A stretch of 64,000 nt of DNA. Source: Membranipora membranacea. Taxonomy: Eukaryota > Bryozoa > Gymnolaemata > Cheilostomatida > Membraniporidae. The notes beneath the pieces are model-generated. The model was not told where the DNA came from and made no database searches. It worked only from the letters and a program-made list of their open reading frames with translations. The stretch lies in the NCBI GenBank assembly GCA_914767715.1, contig OU612068.1, positions 3,036,001 to 3,100,000 on the forward strand, in the 5' to 3' direction. How positions within the stretch are numbered: position 1 is the stretch's first letter; each line of letters opens with the position of its first letter. This document shows, in pieces, positions 2,989-51,593 of this stretch. A program made the translations under genes and the position numbers.

Positions 2989-3488
2989 NNNNNNNNNNNN
3001 NNNNNNNNNNNNNNNNNNNNNNNNNNNNNNNNNNNNNNNNNNNNNNNNNNNNNNNNNNNNNNNNNNNNNNNNNNNNNNNNNNNNNNNNNNNNNNNNNNNN
3101 NNNNNNNNNNNNNNNNNNNNNNNNNNNNNNNNNNNNNNNNNNNNNNNNNNNNNNNNNNNNNNNNNNNNNNNNNNNNNNNNNNNNNNNNNNNNNNNNNNNN
3201 NNNNNNNNNNNNNNNNNNNNNNNNNNNNNNNNNNNNNNNNNNNNNNNNNNNNNNNNNNNNNNNNNNNNNNNNNNNNNNNNNNNNNNNNNNNNNNNNNNNN
3301 NNNNNNNNNNNNNNNNNNNNNNNNNNNNNNNNNNNNNNNNNNNNNNNNNNNNNNNNNNNNNNNNNNNNNNNNNNNNNNNNNNNNNNNNNNNNNNNNNNNN
3401 NNNNNNNNNNNNNNNNNNNNNNNNNNNNNNNNNNNNNNNNNNNNNNNNNNNNNNNNNNNNNNNNNNNNNNNNNNNNNNNNNNNNNNNN
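2989..3488. other. Assembly gap of exactly 500 N
   Basis: A run of 500 N, a round default length used when scaffolding. The true distance is unknown. Open frames spanning it are meaningless. Confidence 0.99.
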
Positions 3489-5428: not shown

Positions 5429-6148
5429 TCAGTTATGTTTAATATAACTTAAGTAGGCATCTGATTTCCACCTGCCGTGAACCTGTATCTGAGCTGCAGT
5501 CCATCCTCTCTTTCTAGCCCAAGTAGCCCCTCCATGACGGAAACAGTGGGGTGTGAGCTTTGACTTTATCCCCGCTCTACCAGCTCCATACTGTAATATT
5601 TTCCCAAACTCCTGGGCGGAAACATCAAAGAGTGGTGACTCAGGGAGTTTATGCCCAAACAAACCCAGGTATTGCCGTAGCAACAGCACTGGTTGTAAGG
5701 GTTCGCCGGAGTTGTCAACAGGTTTGACCCTAGCCTCTGTCTTAGAGAGTCTGAACGACCTCAGAGTTAGATGACAAGAGGTTTTATCCTTTGACCAATG
5801 CACATCTCCGAACAGAAGGGCATGGGAGCTAGCTGTGGTACAAAACTCTGATGGTCGAAGAAACCCGTAAAAAGCTACTGCCATCATGCAGCGAAACTGG
5901 CACGCAACTCTAGGAGCAAGTATTTCAGCTGCCCTGTCAAGTCTGAGCAGATGAATGGACAACACTGCAGTTTTCGTGCCTGCTGTAGACTCATTCCTAA
6001 ACCCTTTCAGCAGCATCTTGAGTCTTTCTGAGTCCAGGGATACTTTTAGGTCTAACTTGCGAAAAGAGTGGCGTAGGCTGAGAGCTCTTTGCAACATCCT
6101 CAACTGAACAATAATGGACTGATTTATTTTCTTCTTTGATGAAGTCAT
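5429..6148 (-). pseudogene. Tyrosine recombinase (DIRS-like) catalytic region, remnant
   Basis: A 239-residue open frame on the minus strand with the catalytic layout of tyrosine recombinases: first Arg in GFLRPSEF (about residues 95-102), the box HCFRHGGAT (His-x-x-Arg, about 201-209), then HGRWKSDAYLSYI near the C-terminus, which supplies the second His position and the Tyr nucleophile. All expected catalytic residues appear present and the frame is open. The first ~50 residues are not recombinase-like: they start inside shifted reverse transcriptase sequence, so the N-terminal DNA-binding part is missing. Such proteins cut and rejoin DNA through a 3'-phosphotyrosine. This copy is probably dead as an element because the rest of pol is deleted, although the recombinase core itself has no stop. 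Confidence 0.7.
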
Positions 6149-9659: not shown

Positions 9660-11023
9660 TCATATCATATCATTGAGACCCTTAGTTCCTGGAGCTCCTT
9701 GAGGACCACGAGGACCTGGAGGACCAGGTTCTCCAGGGTATCCATATCGACCAGGCCGCCCTCGGTCTCCTTGAGGACTACGATGACCAGTTGGTCCAGG
9801 GAACCGTTCACCACTATGAAGCCCAGGTGTTCCAGGAACCCCAGGTAATCCTCCTAATCCTTTATCACCAGGATTCCCAGATAATCCTCGTAATCCTTTA
9901 TCACCAGGAATCCCAGGTAGTCCTCTACTTCCAACAAGACCTCTCTCTCCTTTGTCACCCTTTGGACCAGATATTCCCCTACATTCACACTCATCTACAA
10001 CGGTTCTCTCACCAAACACTAAAAATGAAAAATGTATGAATATATATGCTCGACTGAAAGCACGCGAATGCTTGGAGGATTTGTAGTATTCAACAAATAA
10101 CAATCATATCAGTTTGTGTGGAAAGAAATTTGACATTTTGGATGATTCATGATAGGTATGTATATATTTTATACTAGCTTACCATATTCTAACCGAAAAC
10201 TGTTTCACCCAATTTCAAAACTTTTGCGATGCTAAAAATAAACGAGGCCTACTGGACATAAACAGACTGTCTAGAATGTCTTGTCTTATCAGCTGGCTTA
10301 TCACAAACAATATAAGATAATATTCATCATGTGACTGAAAACTTACTGTTGGCCTTCTCTAGAGCCGTTTCAAGGGTACCTATTTTGTTTTCCAATTTGC
10401 TCAGTCTGCTCGATTCCCATCCGAGACCTGTTCCCAGTGCAGCACATAGGATGATAAGTAGGCTGATGAGTATAGCTACTTTAATCTTGGTACAGCCTGG
10501 GGATTTAAGATTTTCCACTTTGTCAAGCTGGTGGCTATCATTGCTTTTCCTCTCAGGTCCGCTGTAAATATAGTTAAGTAAATTAAATCTGTAAAAAGTG
10601 AATTTTACCTAATAAAATAAAAATGACATAACCATTTTCATTGTATTATGTGCATTTAGCCAAGCTGTCTATGTCTATGTCTATGTTTATGTTTATTCTT
10701 TTATTTTTACTGTTCTGCTTACTCTGGCACAATGGGAAGAACATCATTTTAATGATGAAATTTGTAGTCAATAAATGTTTAAAAAACATGGCACTAGCAG
10801 TATTTATTTTTTTGTCATCAGAAGGAAGACAATAAGAGTAATAGAATAACCACATAATCTACACTTACTTTTCGGACTGAGGAAGTAATGCAGAATAGAC
10901 ATGGTCAGGATTGATATGTCTGTCAATCTGCTGATATTCTGGGTTCTGATGTGGAGTTGTCACCTCTGTGTTGTCCGCGATCTGTCTTGATTCCACTGAG
11001 TCCATAACTTCGTACTCGTCCAT
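9660..11023 (-). CDS. Type II membrane protein with collagen-like stalk, copy 1
   Basis: Three coding exons on the minus strand (11023-10869, 10561-10347, 10018-9660) join in phase to 242 residues. The cytosolic N-terminus carries tyrosines in YEVM (Y4), YQQI (Y30) and YSAL (Y43). A hydrophobic helix (about 80-100, ending GTGLGW) follows, preceded by KIKV and with no signal peptide, so the C-terminus is predicted extracellular. A short coiled coil (SKLENKIGTLETALEKAN), a two-cysteine ECECRG motif and about 100 residues of Gly-X-Y then follow, with an irregular stretch near LHSGERFPGPTGHRS. There is no C1q or other globular C-terminal domain; the frame stops a few residues after the triplets. 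The layout resembles trimeric membrane collagens and scavenger-receptor stalks. The start has a good Kozak context (G at -3, G at +4) and lies two bases after the stop of an upstream ORF. Function is unknown. Copy 2 at 18403-21623 supports the gene model exon for exon. Confidence 0.8.
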
Positions 11024-11774: not shown

Positions 11775-13880
11775 TGGATGGATGGATGGATGGATTTATT
11801 ACTATCATAGACAAACTTTGTCACGAAATACGTTGTTAATACTGACAAGAAAGAAAAACATGGAAAAAATCAGATCTCTGTTGTATAAAAAGATTTTTGG
11901 AATAGTGTATTATTAAGTGTATGTATGAGATGTCTTAAAAAGCTGTCTCTACCGCATGTACCCCGATATTTAACGGTGCGGTAGCGACCTGAGGGGAATT
12001 TAGTTAGAAAGTCATTGATAATGTGCTCTTCATCGTGTATGTACCGTAGTCCAAGTGTGTTGATCTGGTTGGCCACCAGAGCATCTATATCGGGGTGCTC
12101 AATCCCTAACTTGGCGGCATCTTTAAATATTTTGCGTAAGGACTTCTTGTCGCTTGCATGGATGCTTGTAAAAAGTATGGGGAGACAGTAAGTGATGAGG
12201 GATACAATAAAACTCTTGAATAACATATGAGAAAGGGGCTTTGAGCTATAGTATACAAAATTTTTCACAATATACATGCGTTGAGATGCAGTAGTCACTA
12301 TGGATTGCACATGATCATGATAGCGGAGTTTATCGTCAACAGTAACACCAAGGTATTTTACTTTGTCACAAAAATCAACTTCCGTGCCGTTAAGGATAAG
12401 AGTAGGGGTAATGGGCCTAACAAGCTGAGTAGAAAACATCATTTCTTGAGTCTTGGAGGCGTTTAACAATAGGTTTAAATCACAACATTGCTTTGAAATT
12501 CTACTAATCTCATCAAGATAGGCACTAAGATCTGATTGATTTGATATGCATCCAATTATACAGGTGTCGTCTGCGTATTTAATGACAGTAGTATTGCTCA
12601 AGTCTGAGGTAATCCTATTGGTATATATTGAAAACAAAAGTGGAGATAAACAGCAACCCTGGGGAGTGCCAGTGTTGGTTATGATGGGTTTTGAGATATT
12701 GTCATCTACTATTGTTCTTCGGGTGCGATTCGATTCGTTAGGAAGCTGTATATCCATTCAGTGACATTGGAATGGAGATGTGATAGTTGCGAGATTAAGT
12801 CTGGAACATGTATTGTGTTGAATGCAGAAGAAAAGTCAAGGAACAGACACCTGGCATAATTTGAAGCTTTCTTGTCAATGAAATCTGTGATGGTAGTAGT
12901 GAGGCATAAAAGGGCATCTTGAGTTGAGCGGTTTGCACGATAAGCAAACTGAAGGTGGTCCATAGCTGTATGAGTAATAATGTAATGTTTAACAAGTCTC
13001 TCCATCATTTTGCACAGGCAACTGGTGAGCGCTATTGGTCTGTATTGTTTAAGTTGATCGGGATTCTTAACTTTGGGTAGGGGTTTGATAATGGCCGATT
13101 TCCAGGAAGTAGGGGTTGACTTAGACGTGATAGATAAATTGAACAGTTTCGTTATGACAGGCGCCAGTTGATAGGCACATAGCTTAAGTACTTTGGGGAT
13201 GAGGCCATCAGGGCCTGGACCTTTCCTCGAGTTCAATGATTTCAACTGCCTCTTCTATTTCTAAAGGTGGTGCTATGGTGGCGTTGTTATTGATGTCAGG
13301 ACGGTCAGCGAGAGGCTTCTCAAATCTTGTGAACAAGGTGTTTAGGTCATCTGAGTTGAATGGATTTTGTTGAGTTGGTTTTGGGCTATTAGTAGGTAAT
13401 CCACTAATCTTTTTTATGTCAGTCCAGGCTTTAGCAGGTTCTTTCGCTAGGTTATGCTGTATTTTCCGAGAGTATTCTTGTTTGGCTTGTTTAATAGATT
13501 TAGTGATGTCGCGTTTGAGTTTGTTGTAGAGTTTACGGTTACCAGTTTTGTGGGCTTGTTGTTTCTCATCGATCATCTCCGATATTTGTTTATTGATCCA
13601 GGGTTTTTGATTTGTGCAAACTCTGACGCTCTTCTCTGGTATACACAGATCGGTACAAAAGTTAATATAGTCAGTGATAATATCCGTTTGTTTATCAAGG
13701 TCATCATTGTCAGAAATTAAATTGTCCCAAATAGTGATGTCAAGAGCAGCTTGCAGATTTTCACAGTTTTCTTCAGAATAGGTACGACGAGTTATTCTAG
13801 TGGGTTTGCATTTGGATAACGGAGTGTAGGTAGGAATGAGATGTGTTATATAATGGTCAGATTCACCAAGCTTAGCTAGT
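11775..13880 (-). pseudogene. 5'-truncated LINE reverse transcriptase (Rex1/CR1-like), frameshifted
   Basis: Read on the minus strand the element starts inside the end of the endonuclease domain (GESDHYITHLIP, the SDH motif) and continues through a linker (about 13577-13245) to reverse transcriptase motifs: GPDGLIPKVLK, QYRPIALTS, LQFAYRANRST, LFLDFSSAFNTI, GTPQGCCLSPLLFSIY and IKYADDT (active-site DD), then a C-terminal thumb region ending at 11870. At least two frameshifts break it (near 13208-13245 and 12709-12757), so it is not translatable as one protein. The distal end is a (GGAT)n tract at 11772-11797, plausibly its 3' tail. It lies inside the foldback element. Confidence 0.85.
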
Positions 13881-13974
13881 TGACAACAGCTGGCAATCCC
13901 TGTGTTACGTCACAACGCGTCATACTTATTGTGAATATGATATACTAATAATTCCACAGATAAGATGATGATCT

Positions 13975-18402: not shown

Positions 18403-21400
18403 TTAGCCTTTTGACTGACGTACTTTAGAAGTTTGTTGGTAGCAATCGTGCACAGTCAGCCCAGGATTCCCATCCTGACATGGCGACCCTTTGGGTCCAG
18501 ACTCTCCAGGAGATCCATGGCGACCATCAGGCCCAGGCTGCCCACGTGGTCCTCGAGCGCCGGGAATCCCAGGTAGTCCTCTTAGGCCATCAGACCCAGA
18601 TGGACCAGGAAACCCTCTAGCGCCAGTCAGCCCGTCTAATCCAGGATATCCGCGATCCCCAGAAGTCCCAGGCATCCCATGTAATCCTTCAGCACCATCA
18701 GAACCAGGTCGTCCAGGCAATCCTCTTTGTCCAGCAACTCCGACAAAACCTTTCTCCCCTCTGTCACCTTTTAGGCCAGGTTTACCTCTACATTTACACT
18801 CTTCAACAAGAGTTCTTTCATCATATACTGGAAATAGACAAACGCAAATCCATCAAATAAAGATTGTGATTACTCTAATTGTTTAAGTGGATTTGTAGCA
18901 AAAATCAAAAAAGAAAACTAACTCTCTTTTGTTTCTTGAAGGAATCCTAACACTTGGGATGGTTATAGCTATTGAGGCACAGGAAACAAAAAGAAAGTTT
19001 TGGTGCCCTTCGATACTCTCTCTATCTTGGCAATCAAACTCAAGACACAAGAAAATGATGATTAGAAATGAGAAGTCGCCCTCTCTCAACCACCTGAGGC
19101 GAGTCCTTTAGACCAAGGAGGAATACTGTAACTCCTGTCACCACTCTAGCAGTGAATAGATAATATTTCCCTCCCATCTCCCTTTCACTAAATCATGTTT
19201 GTATGTTAAAGGGCAACCAAGGTTTCGCAGCAATGCATTAATGGGTAGCAAATAATGTGCTGGGCAGCATCAGCTTTGTGCATTACGCGATGCAAAACTC
19301 AAAGTAGTCGCTGACTCTAAGCTGGGTAACACTTCAGTTTAGGGGAGGTTCCAAGACTTTGCTGTAATAATTATAGAGCACAGGCTAAATAATAACAGGA
19401 ACAGGAAACTGCTATGTGGTATTCTCTTTTAGCTGAGTTTGAGTACCTGATGGAAGAAATGTTTCACAAGAATTCTGGCTGAATAATCATCCGAATTATA
19501 TTTTGTCTTTTTCCCCATGCAGAAGGTGCAATCTGCTATTAATCAATGGCCATCAATGAGAAGTTGTTTGAAACCTTGGTTGCCCTTTAAGATTCAACAG
19601 TTTCTTGGTGATGGTGTTCATTTGTTCGTCAATTCTGCACCAGATTACAATATATCTAATACAAGGCAAGTACCCTGTCTGTCAAACATTGGCACTGATC
19701 GTCACTTACGATTGGAAATGCGTAAAGCGCGCTCGTATTTTTCACTGTAAACATTTGGTTAATGAAAATGAAAAATCTTCATTGACCAATTGTCTTTTGT
19801 CACTAGATAAAATTTGATCCTATTTTCCAGCGTCGGAGTTGCCCCCTCCCCCTGCTTCCGACTGCAGCCTATCATAGTCATAGTCATGGTCTTGCAAGGC
19901 CCTCAGACAGCTTTAATCATTCATATGTGTAGGTTAAAAAAAGGAGGGGGGATAAAATTTCTGTTTCTGTCTGAAGAAAGATAAATAAAGGTGCCTGCGA
20001 CAGCAATATTCGGCGCCTAGTTCCTCTCAGTTTATAGGCAGTTCAGGGCACACCTGGGGCATCGATTGAGCCCAGTAGACAATAGACTGTAATGGGTTTT
20101 GAACCCGAGGCCTCCAATACTTACGTATTAGAGGGCAGATGCCCTTACCATCTGAAAAAACCTCCTACTCTTACCTTCATATATCATTGGAGGCAGCAAT
20201 CACGAATAAGCTGAAATCAGCCATATTTAACTGTTAAAAATGAGTAACCACGCTATGATATGATGTAACTGGCTATGATTATGGAACGGATAAACCATCT
20301 TTGATATCATGTCAGAAGAAAAGCGACTACCTATGACATGTCTTTACATTCCCGCACGGCAGCCATAGAAGTTTTTTCATAGCCTGACATGATCAGTCAT
20401 ATTATCTTGACAATATTGAAGATATTATTGTCAAACCTTAAAGGGCAACCAAGGTTTGGCAGCAATGCATTAGTGGGTAGTAAATAATGTGCTAGGCAGC
20501 ATGAGCTTTCTGCATGATGCGGCGCAAAACTCAAAGTAGTTGCTGACTCTAAGTTGGGTAACACTTCAGTTTAAGGGAGGTTCCAAGACATTGCTTTAAT
20601 AATGTTAGAGCACAGGCTAAATAATAACAGGAACAGGACACTGCTCTGTGGTATTCTTTTTAGCTGAGTTGAGTACCTGATGGATGAATTGTTTCACAAG
20701 AATTCTGGCTTAAAAGTCATCAGAATTAGATTTTGTATTTTTCCCAATGCAGAAGGTGCAATCTGCTATCAATCAATGAGAACTTGTTTGAAACCTTGGT
20801 TGCCCCTTAAATTCGGAGGACGTCCAGGATATGCTACCATTGGCAACCATTTTCTAACGCAAAAGAGCCTCGCTCAGTTTCAAAACTCTGAAATGTCTTT
20901 TATGCAGAGCTGGAAATGAAAATACTGTATAGGATTCTAATCAACATAGCCATGTCTGATCGGTTATAGCTGGATTTTCTTAAATAATTCCAGATAAGTT
21001 TATCAAGTGAATACCTACTGTTAGCTCTCTCTAGAGCCTTTTCTAGAGTACCGATCTTGTTTTCCAATTTGCTGAGTTGACTAACTGCCCATCCGAGACC
21101 TGTTCCCATAGCAACACATAGTATACTAAAGAAAATGATGAGGACACCGGCTTCCTTTACTCTAGTGCAGCCTGAGCGTTTCAGATTCTCAGTCAAATCT
21201 TCTTTCTTGGCTATTTCACGCTGCTGGTTGTCAATGCTTTCCCTCTCAGGTTCACTGCAAATAGTATCAAACGGGAGAAAAATTTTTTGATACAGTTTCC
21301 GCTACAATTACGATACTTTAAACAAGTCTTCAAAGCCTGCACAGTCTTGACGGTCTTTACAGCTCTACATTTATCTTATCAGCTGAACTTTTGAATTGAC

Positions 21401-24805: not shown

Positions 24806-24949
24806 CAGTAACCTGTAACCTGTAACCCGTAACCCGTAACCCGTAACCCGTAACCCGTAACCCGTAACCCGTAACCCGTAACCCGTAACCCGTAACCCGT
24901 AACCCGTAACCCGTAACCTGTAACCTGTAACCAGTAACCAGTAACCTGT
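24806..24949. repeat. Heptamer array CCCGTAA/TTACGGG
   Basis: About 20 units of 7 bp. The centre (24826-24916) is 13 perfect CCCGTAA units; both edges carry CCTGTAA and CCAGTAA variants. It resembles a telomere repeat in style but is not the metazoan TTAGGG. Confidence 0.95.
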
Positions 24950-27406
24950 AGTTAGAGTAAGTCAGCAGACTACTTCTCAAAGTAACGCTGCCGATACATT
25001 AGACTTCATTGATACAAGTCACATTATCTGACCCCGTTCTGCAATTATCCCGATTTCAGCAAAGGGGTAGAGCAGAGCGTCATTCACTTGACCGTCATGA
25101 ACTGACCAGAGGTGATTGATAATTAAATCTGAGGTGTTGAGTTGATCTTTATTGCGGCACTGCAGTGGTAAGGGTAGGGCAAGCGCTTGGGGGGTTTCTC
25201 GCTCAGGTTTGGCGAAATAATAACCAACATCCTACGCAAGTCACACTCGCTGCTATGTGTCTGTACACAATGGACATAATTATAGCAATGAGATTGTTGG
25301 CATAGTATTAGCATCGTGTCAAAGGACAAAGAAAGTCTATGTGATACTTTGTACATGAAACAGTATCAAAAGAAAATATTAACATTTATAAAGCTGGCTT
25401 CCTGCATTTATTTACTGATTGAGAGCCCAATTTCAAGTTAATTTCCTGTAATTACATTAAAATATTGCTGAGCCCTCTATATCTATATGTAAGATAATAT
25501 TTTAATAGCATTATAAATTTGTTTAATTGTTATGATATCTGTTTGTACATAAGTGCATATTTCGAACAGACATCAAAAGCGGTTTTGAACATAGCTATTA
25601 TCCACAATACACAGTATGGATTAGCAATGTATGTGTTCCTGAAACTAGGTGATAAAACTTTGTTATAAGCTATTTATAACATACACATTAAACATTATAC
25701 AGCATACTGAAATATACCGGATGGATTGGAAGGATTTCACTATAATCATTTCAGATTGCTGAATCTCCAGGAAGAGCTTGGCGCTGTTATCAGTATCGCG
25801 TGTACTATCAGACTAATATAATATTATGTATGTACAAAAAGGAATCGCTGGCCTCTCTATAACAATCACCATCAGGTGAAATTTGTCTAGCAATAGTATA
25901 TAAAAGCAATTTAAAAATCAGTTTACTCTAATGGTAGCGGTCCTGAAAGTTTCCAAGCTTTCGCTTTATAGATATTTTAACACCGCCTAAACTTTCGCTT
26001 CAAGTATGAAATATTTTATAGCCCTGTTATCACAAGGTGCCATCCCTTAGTATAGGAGCCAACTGTAATTTCAGTGTGAACCAAGTATGTTTACTTATTG
26101 TACAGCCAGATTTCCAGAGAAAATATCTCAGAATCATGCGGGGGGCAGACAATTCTATTAGCACAGAGGACTTCCTCCGAACGCTTCTGTATGACCATTT
26201 GGGTAGGCGTAAACCCATGATTGTACTAGCATTTACACCTTTAGCGTGCATTCAATGATCTAGGGCTTCTCACCTCAATAATTGTACCAATCCACTGTAT
26301 ATCTAACACTAAACAAAGTTTATTGATCTTTCAAATTGTTCAAACTGATCATATGGATGCCTGCTGTTAACTTGTCTATCAGGTAGGTTAGATGGGGGTG
26401 TGTCAGCATATCCTACATTATGAAAAACTTGAATCGAAAAATCGCTAAATGTGAACTTCAATAATAAACAATTTTGAAAATCCTTATTGATATCTTGTAC
26501 AAAGGGAATTCAAAATCAAAATTTGCTAATATTTTCATCTATGAATACAACATTTCTTGACCAGGTCACAAAATCTAATTCTGTTAATATATTCATCCTG
26601 AGGGGTGAGCCTTTGAACATTGTACAGACTATATCCCTTAGTAGGTTGAGTTTTAGTTCAACAATCTTTAAAATTGGTGATATAGAATTGTGATGCAGGA
26701 ATTATTTAAACCTGTTCTGCCTCAGAATTACCGGAGAGCTAGTTATCCATATTATGCTCAATCTTTCTCCGACCATTTGTTTCCTATATGGTGACAGTTA
26801 AAAAAATTGACCGTGCTTCATTGGGGAGAGTCAAGAAAATATTTGTTTGTAACTTAAGATAGTTGGTGATTTAAATAGTTGTACATAATAGATAGATACC
26901 AGACCTAGCAAGTCCATTGTTGCGCTAGAGCTAGACAATAGATTATCCAACACAAAACTTGAAAAACAAGTAACAAACAATGGTGTAAACAACTGCCCAT
27001 CATTTTCCTGTGAACAACAAACTGCCAACGTTTCTCTCATTTTGTGCTTAGAATCTAATAGGAATATTGTATAGGTTTTGTTGACGACATCCCCAATGGC
27101 TATCTATATTAGCATTGAAATAACTATTGACAATTCCAGACAGCGATAGTCACTTTGACAGTTTCATATTTCCTGCCGTAGCATAAATTATAGCCTTTAT
27201 TAAGAAAATTGACCAATCAACACATCTGAAGCAACAATGTCAATGGCTAATTGGTTTATTATCACCGAATGTAAACTAATTAATGAGCTATTACAGCGGC
27301 ATGCTTCGGCATTAAGAACTATTACTGAGATTTTAATGTCACACCAGACTCAATTTGTTACAATACCAGCAAGCAATCAGGTCCTACATTCTCCATCCGC
27401 AGCAAC
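24950..27406. other. Region upstream of the homeobox gene; no gene recognised
   Basis: No exon could be supported. The part nearest 27407 may contain the 5' UTR and promoter of the EMX-like gene. Several short open frames lack domain or splice support. Confidence 0.45.
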
Positions 27407-45833: not shown

Positions 45834-46819
45834 GGGGAAGGCGGGATACGTTGAGCCAGTTTTTACATATTTGATTGTAACATGCAGTTGAATTGTGCAA
45901 GATTAACAAAAATTGGCACTGAAATTGGTCTTCATGTCTTCCATCAACATGAGTGAGGTCAGAGAGCTATTGCAGCAAGAAAAGGAAAAATTGCTGTTTA
46001 AAAAAAATCTGGAAGCGGCTCAACGTGCCCCAAGCACGGGGCACGTTGAGACGCGTCCACATTTTGTATGGGGCACGTTGAGCCACTCTGTTATGGTCAT
46101 CTCTTTGCTGGTCATGACTTTTTAATTCATTACAATCATAAGAAATAAAGAAAAACAACCTAATTCATTGCAACAGCGCATTTTTTCACTCAATTGAACT
46201 ATAAAATATAATTTGCAACACAAAATAAACCTCTGAAATATTTGCGGTAGAAGAAAACTTGCACATGGCAAAATTGATGATACGTGAATGGAAAAGTGAA
46301 CTCAGAGTAATTGCTTATTACATAAAAGAAACATCAATTCCAATGTTTTTGTTTTCGGTACATATTACCACATATACACTTTCATCATATAACATTCATA
46401 TACTACAGGGCATGGCTCACCGTGCCCCAACGTGCATGGCCCTACGTGCCCCAACAGCCTGTTTTCACGTTCAACTCGAGTTAAACAAAATCTCTCCATC
46501 AGAGATAAGTTTAGATTAGGTGAAATTGAGACTAAATATTATGTTATCACATAGTAAAAGTTGCAACTTCTCAGTCACGCCTTGTTGGGAATAGATGACA
46601 TTTCCGTTGATTAGCGCAGTATTTACTTTTTATGCTTAAAACAATGAAAAACTAAATAATTATCTTCCCTTAGTAGCTATTGTTATTTTTATCTGCTCAA
46701 AAAGGGTGCCCGTGGTCAGATGACCTCTGATGGACGGGAAAACTCAAAACATTAAATGGTATTCGAAAAAAGTGGGGTGGATCAACGTGCCCCATGGCTC
46801 AACGTGCCCCGCCTTCCCC
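45834..46819. mobile_element. Inverted-repeat element with GGGGCACGTTGAG motifs, TA target
   Basis: The ends read GGGGAAGGCGGG...GTTGAGCCA and its complement, flanked by TA on both sides (45832-45833, 46820-46821). The 12-bp core CACGTTGAGCCA/TGGCTCAACGTG recurs inside: a near-perfect palindrome at 46019-46050, a single copy at 46070-46083 and diverged copies around 46425-46455. Length is 986 bp with no transposase-like frame, so it is a non-autonomous DNA transposon. The TA duplication is too short to assign a superfamily securely. Confidence 0.7.
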
Positions 46820-46921
46820 TACCTATATAGTCAAAGGGCAGAATCTACACCACATACAGTACTCTGGTTATTATAAAATCTAGCTGTCCTAGCTGTCCTC
46901 TTAGGCATGCATGCAATACAG

Positions 46922-46952
46922 ATAGATGGCTCTCTCTCTCATCTCTCTCTGT
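46922..46952. repeat. CT microsatellite
   Basis: Interrupted (CT)n tract. Confidence 0.85.
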
Positions 46953-47083
46953 GAAATGAGTGACATAACAACAATACATACCGAGTTCTGAAAGTGCTGG
47001 TACTTACTTGGTACTTGCCGACGTGATCACCGCTTCATAGGGCTGAATACTCTAGTAATGTGGCACTCCGTTGGTCCGTATTT

Positions 47084-48158
47084 GGATTTTGGAATGAACT
47101 TCGGCTGAAAAACGTCGACGGGATTAAACGTCGGCTGGAATGAACGTCGACTGGAATGAATCTCGAAATTCCCGGACCCAACGTCGAACTTCCTGGATTA
47201 AACGTCGACTACATTAGTTTATCGATGGAATCAATGGTAATGCAACTCCCCAAAATAATTGTGTAAAATAAAGAGGATCATTCACAAAGGTACTCACACC
47301 TGTTTATTATGAAGATTACCAAATCTCTGATGGCTGAATGGAATCAAGTATGTAATGAAGTTCCACAGAATTGTACTTGTCTGGTAATAAGAGTCAATTG
47401 AGTATGAGCGAGCTATTTTGACATGTACCCGCCCTTAATTGATGACATGATGGTACTGATGCTCAGTGAATTATTTCGCTCTCTTTCAATCAGAGATATA
47501 AAATCAATGGTATATCATGTGATCAACGTGCTTGCCTTCAGCAGAATTATATATGTTCTTTTCACAGACATGACAGATGTGATGACAATACTGCAACGGG
47601 ATACGAGTTTGCCGAGTCGATAAATGACGACTGGTGGACAGCACGCAGGAAGAATTGTGCACGGTTACAACGGTGTACTCCCTCTCATCGGTTACAATAA
47701 CTGGTACAAAAAATGATTGTTCATAAATATACGTAAACTACGACTCATAAGTCATATATTTCACTGCAGATAAAAAACTGATGGTATTGTGTACTCCGGG
47801 AGAACAGTGTACATTATCTCTTGGTAGCGCATGGCCCCGTCGGGACCTATTTCTCTTGCAGTATTTCATTACCATTTCTGTTTTGCACTACTCACTGAAT
47901 AGTACAATTCTGTGGAACTTCATTACATACTTGATTCCATTCAGCCATCAGAGATTTGGTAACCGTCATCATAAATAGATGAAAGTACCTTTGTGAATGA
48001 TCATCTTTATTTTACACAATTATTTTGGGGAGTTGCATTCCCATTGATTCCATATATAAACTAATTTAGTCGACGTTCAATCCAGGAAATTCGACGTTGG
48101 TTCCAGCTACGTTCATTCCCGTCGACGTTCGTTCCAGGCGACGTTCATTCCAATCCCC
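47084..48158. mobile_element. Foldback element with GTCGAC subterminal repeats and 8-bp TSD
   Basis: The two ~300-bp ends (47084-47395 and about 47870-48158) are inverted copies; the tips both contain GATTGGAATGAAC-like sequence. Each arm carries several copies of an ACGTCGAC/GGAATGAACGTCG motif. CCGTATTT occurs immediately outside both ends (47076-47083 and 48159-48166), an 8-bp target duplication as in hAT-type elements. No transposase is encoded in the ~475-bp centre. It lies 0.6 kb upstream of RNF185. Confidence 0.8.
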
Positions 48159-48778: not shown

Positions 48779-51593
48779 ATGGCAGAGGGTGGCAGCTCTA
48801 GTGTAGGTGCTACTACAGGTGCTAGCACCCAATCTCCTCCCCCTCAGGAGACACCAGATGATTCTAGTGCTGCTTTTGAATGTAACATATGTCTAGACAC
48901 AGCTAAGGATGCCGTAGTGAGTTACTGTGGTCATCTATTTTGGTGAGTTTCTAGATGTTCAGAGTGTTTTTTAATTTACCTTTAAGTAGAAAACTATGAA
49001 AAAAATCATTTACAGGGCCAGAGCCATTGGAGATGTCCCAAAGCTCTTATAGTACATTCACTGAGATCCATTTCTGCAAGGCAAAGAAATTTGAGCTTAA
49101 CATTCACCTTAATGTCGGTATATCTTACTGTGATCACGTTCATATTTTTCAGTTGGCCATGTCTACACCAGTGGTTAGACACAAGACCCGATAGACAGAT
49201 GTGTCCGGTATGTAAAGCTGGTATCAGTAGAGAAAAAGTTATACCTCTCTACGGCAGAGGAAGCAAGGACAATGTGGACCCAAGGTATGTCTCACTTCTT
49301 TATCTTCATGTGGACCCAAGGTATGTCTCCTCACTTCTTTATCTTCATGTGGACCCAAGGTATGTCGTCTCACTTCTTTATCTTCATGTGGACCCAAGGT
49401 ATGTCTCACTTCTTTATCTTCATGTGGACCCAAGGTATGTCTCCTCACTTCTTTATCTTCATGTGGACCCAAGGTATGTCTCCTCACTTCTTTATCTTCA
49501 TGTGGACCCAAGGTATGTCTCACTTCTTTATCTTCATGTGGACCCAAGGTATGTCTCACTTCTTTATCTTCATGTGGACCCAAGGTATGTCTCCTCACTT
49601 CTTTATCTTCATGTGGACCCAAGGTATGTCTCCTCACTTCTTTATCTTCATGTGGACCCAAGGTATGTCTCCTCACTTCTTTATCTTCATGTGGACCCAA
49701 GGTATGTCTCCTCACTTCTTTATCTTCATGTGGACCCAAGGTATGTCTCACTTCTTTATCTTCATGTGGACACAAGGTATGTCTCCTCACTTCTTTATCT
49801 TCATGTGGACCCAAGGTATGTCTCCTCACTTCTTTATCTTCATGTGGACCCAAGGTATGTCTCCTCACTTCTTTATCTTCATGTGGACCCAAGGTATGTC
49901 TCACTTCTTTATCTTCATGTGGACCCAAGGTATGTCTCCTCACTTCTTTATCTTCATGTGGACCCAAGGTATGTCTCACTTCTTTATCTTCATGTGGACC
50001 CAAGGTATGTCTCCTCACTTCTTTATCTTCATGTGGACCCAAGGTATGTCTCCTCACTTCTTTATCTTCATGTGGACCCAAGGTATGTCTCACTTCTTTA
50101 TCTTCATGTGGACCCAAGGTATGTCTCCTCACTTCTTTATCTTCATGTGGACCCAAGGTATGTCTCCTCACTTCTTTATCTTCATGTGGACCCAAGGTAT
50201 GTCTCCTCACTTCTTTATCTTCATGTGGACCCAAGGTATGTCTCACTTCTTTATCTTCATGTGGACCCAAGGTATGTCTCCTCACTTCTTTATCTTCATG
50301 TGGACCCAAGGTATGTCTCCTCACTTCTTTATCTTCATGTGGACCCAAGGTATGTCTCCTCACTTCTTTATCTTCATGTGGACCCAAGGTATGTCTCCTC
50401 ACTTCTTTATCTTCATGTGGACCCAAGGTATGTCTCCTCACTTCTTTATCTTCATGTGGACCCAAGGTATGTCTCACTTCTTTATCTTCATGTGGACCCA
50501 AGGTATGTCGTCTCACTTCTTTATCTTCATATTGTGTCTCTCTTTGAGCAAAGTTCACAATGGTTTGTGTACAGGCTAGTATTAACTTTGTAAGGTTTGA
50601 TTATTTATATCACGTTGAACAGAATGAGTGTTACATTATTACTGTCAATCAAGTCATAGGGACTATTACTTACATATTTTTTTGATGAGGTCTTTCTACA
50701 AGTACTGCTGTCATATGACTATTGCCTCATTTTTATTTTTTCAGATCGAAATCACCACCAAGACCATCTGCTCAAAGAAGTGAGCCAGAAAGCACAGGGG
50801 TATGTTTAACATGTATTTGTGTGTCTGTAAGATGTTTTACATGAAAATATGTGAATAGCAAACAGCCACAATGCTTATTACTATCATACTATACTCATTG
50901 CTATCACTGGAATATTCCTAAAACATTTTTCAACCATGAATGCTGAAAATTTGGCAATAATATATGATATATTCAAGAACCTTCTGTTATTGTTTACGTT
51001 AAGAGCCATGTTTGATGTATTAACTACATTGTCATGTCACAAACAATAAATGTAGTTGCCTTAGTTACTCAATAAATATTTATGTATTTCCATTTTTCTG
51101 ATTTTCTATTTGCAGCAATTTGGTAATTTCAACTTTGGCAATCTGCAGCTATCCTTTGGAATCGGTGCTTTCCCATTTTCATTTTTTGCTTCCACTTTCA
51201 ATCAAGGCGACGCCAGACCAGGCCACCGTAAGTATTTAAACTCAAGTTATAAGTTTAGTTTATAGAACATGCCCACTAGACAGAGGGTTTTTGACTATAT
51301 GGGGTTGTGTATACCGTTCAACTAATTATGATGGCAGTGTCTTTGTTCCTTCAGTTGTTTTGATAAGACTAAAAAAAAAAGATATGTGTATATTAAACAG
51401 AAGAGCCACATACCTTGCTTACTGGCTTGTGCGTGTGATTGTATGATGTATTTTCATATGATTTATATTATGATTCTTTTTTGTCCCTTTTGCAGCTGCG
51501 ACAGGGACCCAACAACATGAGGAAGAACAGGTGTTATCTAGAATTTTCCTATTTGTTGCTGTATTCTTCGCCATCTGGCTTGTAATAGCCTAA
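48779..51593 (+). CDS. RNF185: RNF185, ER-membrane RING-type E3 ubiquitin ligase
   Basis: Five coding exons (48779-48942, 49153-49284, 50745-50799, 51116-51227, 51496-51593) give 186 residues in phase (human about 192). A Ser/Pro-rich N-terminus is followed by a C3HC4 [27 protein letters not shown] and CPVCKAG, with all zinc ligands present. GYGRG-type linker sequence ([11 protein letters not shown]) and a PPRP motif follow, then two hydrophobic C-terminal segments ([15 protein letters not shown] and [16 protein letters not shown]) that anchor the enzyme in the ER membrane. The family acts in ER-associated degradation together with its paralog RNF5. Exon 2 ends at the first unit of a 33-copy tandem array. 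If any later donor in that array is used, exon 2 grows by 12-13 residues per unit without a frame change. The ATG lies just after a TTTAACAG acceptor-like sequence, so an upstream non-coding exon is possible. Confidence 0.93.
49272..50528 (+). repeat. 33-copy minisatellite containing the RNF185 exon 2 splice donor
   Basis: Units of 39 bp (23 copies) or 36 bp (10 copies) are nearly identical; the lengths sum to the observed 1257 bp. Each unit contains the last 11 bases of exon 2 followed by its donor (GGACCCAAG|GTATGT). One unit (about 49766) reads GGACACAAG. All unit lengths are multiples of 3 and the exon frame ([13 protein letters not shown]) has no stop throughout. Confidence 0.98.

Follow-up and report, generated by a model that had tools for sequence, protein, structure and literature searches.

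Which of 33 near-identical splice donors does a gene use, and what are the additional ones worth to it? This question is raised by an RNF185-type gene on the + strand of a 64,000-nucleotide stretch of the Membranipora membranacea genome (contig OU612068.1, positions 3,036,001 to 3,100,000; hereafter the window, 37.6% GC). In the computed gene model, five coding exons are joined into a 186-aa protein, and exon numbers here count coding exons only. Exon 1 (48779-48942), which was also placed by alignment with relatives, runs from the ATG to the first half of the RING and ends at the donor TTG|GTGAGT. Exon 2, when ended by the first donor, occupies 49153-49284 and encodes the rest of the RING, to ...DPR. 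Exon 3 (50745-50799) follows the acceptor TTTTTTCAG|ATCG and has its own donor, GGG|GTATGT. Exon 4 lies at 51116-51227, and exon 5 (51496-51593) holds the membrane segment and the stop, in agreement with a hydropathy peak at residues 165-186.

The predicted protein carries a C3HC4 RING near its N terminus (Pfam zf-C3HC4 at residues 35-75, E 1.6e-10, above the cut-off). Its hydropathy peaks at 2.65 over residues 167-185, within a hydrophobic end of about 165-186. The conserved DPR-xx-PPRP linker, the FGIGAFPF segment, which we take to be amphipathic in RNF185/RNF5, and the C-terminal membrane segment are all present in the alignment with nine relatives. By the RING, linker, and membrane-segment features of its predicted product, the gene belongs to the RNF185/RNF5 E3 ubiquitin ligase family. 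Among the best 120 of 1516 protein matches, the top one was RNF185 of the bryozoan Bugula neritina (78% identity over 86% of the query) and the second came from Watersipora subatra (70%). The nine relatives were picked from these 120 and comprise two bryozoans, a hemichordate, a brachiopod, two annelids, a sea anemone, mouse, and medaka. From bryozoans to mouse, the protein made with the first donor aligns to all nine without a gap in exon 2 or at DPR-xx-PPRP. Protein searches with the short and the repeat form found neither form of Membranipora membranacea RNF185 in the collection.

Intron 2 sets this gene apart. Read from the first donor it spans 49285-50744, or 1460 nt, an outlier beside introns 1, 3, and 4 (210, 316, and 268 nt). 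A minisatellite at 49272-50530 on the + strand begins 13 bases before the end of exon 2, crosses the boundary, and continues into the intron. Tandem Repeats Finder describes it as 33.1 copies with a period of 39 and 95% matches, and also reports periods of 114 and 153. With units of 36 or 39 bp, the array falls within the usual definition of a minisatellite, tandem units of about 10-100 bp. The sequence AAGGTATGT is present 33 times, and the donor AAG|GTATGT is repeated as often, with first intron bases from 49285 to 50503; all donors are identical over AAG|GTATGTC. The 32 spacings between them are 39 bp in 22 cases and 36 bp in 10. A sequence-only reading of this locus had proposed a 33-copy minisatellite that amplifies the RNF185 exon 2 donor in units of 36 or 39 bp, all multiples of 3, and these counts bear it out. 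Its start of the array, 49272, also stands, while the end is corrected from 50528 to 50530. For the first donor it gave 49284, where exon 2 ends; intron 2 begins at 49285.

The 32 complete units fall into four kinds. Twenty-one are 39 bp long with GTCTCCTCAC, nine are 36 bp long with GTCTCAC, one is 39 bp long with GTCGTCTCAC, and one, also 36 bp long, carries a single C to A substitution. According to the unit listing, divergence among them amounts to one substitution and three length variants. The sole complete unit with GTCGTCTCAC is the third (49360-49398, or 49357-49395 when the interval is counted from its AAG). The terminal unit, which with donor 33 occupies 50503-50540 and runs into unique intron, has the same variant, and this kind of unit is likely to be the ancestral form. 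Along the array, the 36- and 39-bp units followed no order more periodic than that of shuffled ones (largest autocorrelation 0.67, P 0.94).

When ATGTGGACCCAAGGTATGTC was searched for on both strands of the window with up to three mismatches, 33 matches were found, all inside the array (mean of 0.01 in 100 shuffles). The array is also the sole place reported for the unit in the 339-Mb genome (339,339,785 bases searched in 18 contigs, one haplotype), where repeat counts are lower bounds with very common words skipped. As expected, the prokaryote and viral collections held no exact match (0) to the unit. Rfam gave nothing in the window at the gathering score, and a tRNA scan of the window found none.

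The window contains other repeats and putative mobile-element remains. A cluster of short, degenerate AACGT/GAACG tandem repeats lies directly upstream of RNF185 (46410-48152), and GTAACCC is repeated 20.4 times at 24808-24950 with 97% matches. Two collagen triple-helix ORFs are found on the - strand (9660-10103 and 18403-18852), the first of which contains a 36-bp coding tandem repeat at 9832-9925. Also on the - strand, overlapping ORFs at 11870-13909 include two that match reverse transcriptase (PF00078, E 1.7e-16 and 9.2e-15) and a third with no Pfam match, and together they look like a retroelement with a broken frame. An ORF at 5429-6148 (- strand) matches the phage integrase (tyrosine recombinase) family with an E of 7.4e-07 and perhaps derives from a mobile element. 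A run of exactly 500 N at 2989-3488 is an assembly gap or a withheld stretch, and ORFs listed across it are not real.

How might the array have arisen? Without the 32 units, intron 2 would be 242 nt long, in line with introns 1, 3, and 4. The founding 39-bp stretch would have comprised 13 nt from the end of exon 2 and 26 nt from the start of intron 2; it would first have been duplicated in tandem and would then have grown recently to 33 copies. The simplest history of the units begins with an ancestral 39-bp GTCGTC kind, which may have lost one GTC to become 36 bp and then gained one CTC to return to 39 bp. The difference between 36 and 39 bp looks like 3-bp slippage in trinucleotide runs, with two slips that were then copied many times, so that the 32 spacings in multiples of three would represent about three events, not 32. 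Since the 32 units differ by one substitution and the unit is reported from one place in the genome, the array appears to have arisen in place and to be either young or continually homogenised. Its copy number probably differs between colonies.

Assemblers can get the number of units wrong in long identical arrays, and the copy number could therefore be inflated or the array misjoined. Here, the variant units are scattered irregularly along the array, which argues against such an error. HiFi reads are over 10 kb long. The assembly (339.4 Mb in 21 scaffolds, large chromosomes at 38% GC, with an alternate haplotype deposited) was built from 66-fold HiFi reads, which would easily span the 1.26-kb array (PMC10290214). 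We regard an assembly error as extremely unlikely.

To determine what each donor would yield, donor n was spliced computationally to the acceptor before 50745. All of the predicted forms (33/33) were open with one terminal stop, and they range from 186 to 592 aa. From donor 1 (49285-49290), which yields the 186-aa RNF185, to donor 33, which yields the 592-aa form, exon 2 would lengthen from 132 to 1350 nt at the expense of intron 2, which would go from 1460 to 242 nt. The ratio of intron to mean exon length falls from 15.6 at donor 1 to 1.0 at donor 25 and 0.34 at donor 33; ratios above 1 are taken as favouring exon definition and those below 1 intron definition (PMC5762160). Every exon 2-exon 3 junction reads ...CCAAG|ATCG, preceded by GGACAATGTGG for donor 1 and by TATCTTCATGTGG for later donors. 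Computation thus upheld the proposal that every donor could insert complete units of 12 or 13 residues downstream of the RING and ahead of the membrane segment.

The sequence-only reading had also treated the kept exon frame as striking. The frame is indeed open in all 33 forms, but there is nothing special in this because one unit, open in all three forward frames, was copied: neither the 36- nor the 39-bp unit has a stop in any + frame. As a comparison, 20-mers from four intron stretches of RNF185 were placed after GTATGT, and 656 of the 932 resulting 39-bp units were open in the exon frame. The open frame was therefore rejected as evidence of coding. Most such duplications with a unit length that chances to be divisible by three would give an open frame, and the frame argument for function is weak.

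From the array, its donors, and the open computed splice forms, we infer a recent, nearly neutral expansion in which most splicing would use the first donor and longer forms might make up a minor ladder; we give this reading somewhat better than an even chance. Each copy carries a complete and good 5' splice site; the array donor is a good one in that its intronic hexamer, GTATGT, also starts RNF185 intron 3. Splicing would run mostly from the donor at 49285 to the acceptor at 50745 and produce the ordinary 186-aa RNF185, and the effect of the array would be to extend an intron of about 242 nt to 1460 nt. As every unit lacks stops and has a length divisible by three, slips to later donors would be tolerated, with the linker merely gaining complete units of 12 or 13 residues.

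Donor 1, or the first few donors, is given better odds because the protein is conserved at this point and because of the precedent of human IFI6. The 130-aa form of IFI6 is said to be the first-donor form. Splicing at the first repeat donor and at two others downstream gives three IFI6 mRNAs, among which the 130-aa form is predominant (PMC4526556). When both donors of a tandem pair had the consensus sequence, it was mainly the first that was used in a human reporter library (PMC6783452). RNA folding of the first 241 bases of the region gave -46.8 kcal/mol compared to -57.6 kcal/mol for shuffles (z 2.24), and 199 of 200 shuffles folded at least as well. This weaker folding suggests that the donors are not hidden.

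Three points speak against the favoured reading. Donor 33 gives a 242-nt intron, a size usual for RNF185. Among comparable donors, the intron-proximal one is said to be favoured, by a mechanism described as 'not known' (PMC6002489, citing Hicks et al. 2010), which would point to donor 33. Finally, the exon-frame repeats are modelled confidently by AlphaFold2 and could be read as a fold-competent peptide.

One alternative is that many donors are used at comparable rates, which would give a graded mixture of RNF185 proteins whose linkers hold 0 to 32 extra units, as set by array length. That all 33 predicted forms are open and that the donors are identical over AAG|GTATGTC agree with such a mixture. 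The U1 footprint covers 35 nt, 23 exonic and 12 intronic (PMC6002489), and the spacing of 36 or 39 nt is just above it, so neighbouring donors could be occupied at once. On the other hand, protein length is conserved at this point in the nine relatives, and only three mRNA forms are reported for IFI6 (PMC4526556). We consider a graded mixture rather doubtful, though a serious candidate. A stricter version, a 33-rung ladder in which all donors would be loaded with U1, position alone would decide among them, linkers would grow in 12- or 13-residue strands, and the distribution would vary with the copy number of the colony, seems unlikely.

If donor 33 were dominant instead, the array would now be exon and the main product would be a 592-aa RNF185 with a repeat linker of roughly 400 residues. 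This would restore a 242-nt intron like the others of the gene, it agrees with the preference claimed for the intron-proximal donor among comparable tandem donors (PMC6002489), and the exon frame is open throughout the array. It would, however, require an internal exon of 1350 nt and would place some 400 additional residues in a conserved, ungapped linker, and it conflicts with the preference for the first of two equal donors in the reporter library (PMC6783452). Also, no protein with the repeat was found. A 475-aa query, translated from exon 2 and onward across the array, was scored against the 7997 candidates that had the most words in common with it, and the sole match was a Notodromas RING protein over 9% of the query. 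We consider dominance of donor 33 quite unlikely.

The array could also act as a string of tiny introns, if the unit end CCCAAG|GT were an acceptor as well and units were removed stepwise by recursive splicing. Each complete unit has a single AG, at its end and directly before the next GT (32 in the array), and this AG is preceded by a pyrimidine-rich stretch. Any donor-acceptor pair inside the array would remove whole units. Yet even the introns termed ultra-short in Drosophila measure 40-50 nt (PMC5762160), more than a unit of 36-39 nt. The pyrimidine fraction in the 20 nt before the unit AG is 0.65, compared to 0.70, 0.85, 0.80, and 0.90 for the real RNF185 acceptors, and the base at -3 is A, whereas it is C in all four real acceptors (4/4). 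By pyrimidine fraction and -3 base, no acceptor as good as RNF185's own was found before each GT. These poorer acceptor features make a recursive string of mini-introns very unlikely. As a separate observation, each unit at 49285-50502 contains CTCAC, then pyrimidines, and then its sole AG, which is nearly a whole intron in 36-39 nt. The branch-point pattern is yUnAy, and the CTCAC of each unit fits it.

Lastly, the copy number might be under selection, with the array serving as a length-tunable linker of an E3 ligase. Unit lengths in multiples of three and the open frame suit this proposal, as do the confident AlphaFold2 strands. The exon-frame repeats (271 aa, single sequence) were modelled with one strand per unit at a mean pLDDT of 85.7, with repeats mostly above 90 and up to 98. 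Another forward frame (226 aa), the one control, also gave strands, less confidently (mean pLDDT 63.1). This gap speaks for the exon frame. A known fault of AlphaFold2 is that perfect repeats of random sequence come out as beta-solenoids that are unrealistic yet confidently predicted (PMC11795689), and with this fault and one control the strands were not counted as evidence of function. Against selection there is also the unit itself, which is open in all + frames just as 656 of 932 intron-derived inserts are open in the exon frame, and its near-identical copies represent few independent events. We consider a selected device highly improbable.

In the 13- and 12-residue forms of the repeat peptide, hydropathy over 19 residues reaches 0.73 and 0.83 at most, compared to 2.65 for the membrane segment, so the repeats should not be membrane-spanning. 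A match to PF20814 in the exon-frame peptide (whole-protein E 5.2e-12) was dismissed as an artefact of summed repeats since 0 stretches pass alone, and a match to PF09065 in another frame, also with 0 stretches that pass alone, was taken as the same artefact. No relatives of the exon-frame peptide were found in the PDB, and a wrong frame likewise had none. The mechanism offered by the sequence-only reading, in-frame isoforms with a tunable linker or donor competition, is possible. The data are better explained by the alternative that it also named, in which the expansion is neutral and one donor dominates.

A minisatellite that multiplies a donor is already known from human IFI6 (6-16), whose unit is reportedly 12 bp. 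Unlike in IFI6, the units here are longer (36/39 bp), the gene and the phylum are different, and the 33 near-identical donors are each more than a U1 footprint apart. In both genes, a minisatellite at the end of an exon multiplies the donor (PMC4526556 for IFI6), and the array here has the layout of the IFI6 type, with a start in the exon, a run into the intron, and a donor in each unit. The IFI6 minisatellite supplies multiple splice donors (Turri et al. 1995), and its downstream units serve as donors for several mRNA species (PMC4526556), whereas the donors here are predicted. Another feature of the IFI6 type is shared, in that downstream units keep the reading frame in all 33 forms. Human internal tandem repeats at exon-intron boundaries are similar as well, since there too an expanding minisatellite at the boundary forms novel introns; these repeats change splicing, and the repeat often stays exonic in an alternative transcript (PMC2812944). 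They were found in recent human segmental duplications and have on average four 30-bp units, and the text available on them reports no 33-donor ladder (PMC2812944). Repeat number has been linked to splicing for VNTRs such as those of ABCA7 and TERT, which lie inside introns, whereas here the unit includes the exon end and the donor itself. Reporters with duplicated donors likewise set equal tandem donors against one acceptor, with two engineered donors there (PMC6783452) and 33 natural ones here. In searches of the open-licence literature, no RNF185 or bryozoan case of such boundary or donor-supplying repeats was found.

Published rules conflict on the choice between equal donors, with either the first (PMC6783452) or the intron-proximal one (PMC6002489) said to be preferred. 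At this locus, one natural transcript contains 33 donors that are identical over nine bases and almost so in their surroundings, with intron to exon ratios from 15.6 to 0.34. Near-identical donors that differ only in position could be used to test these rules, and the usefulness of the locus as a natural test of donor choice holds without any functional claim. The array also shows how an exon could grow by whole units without breaking the gene, which may be a route to repeat proteins.
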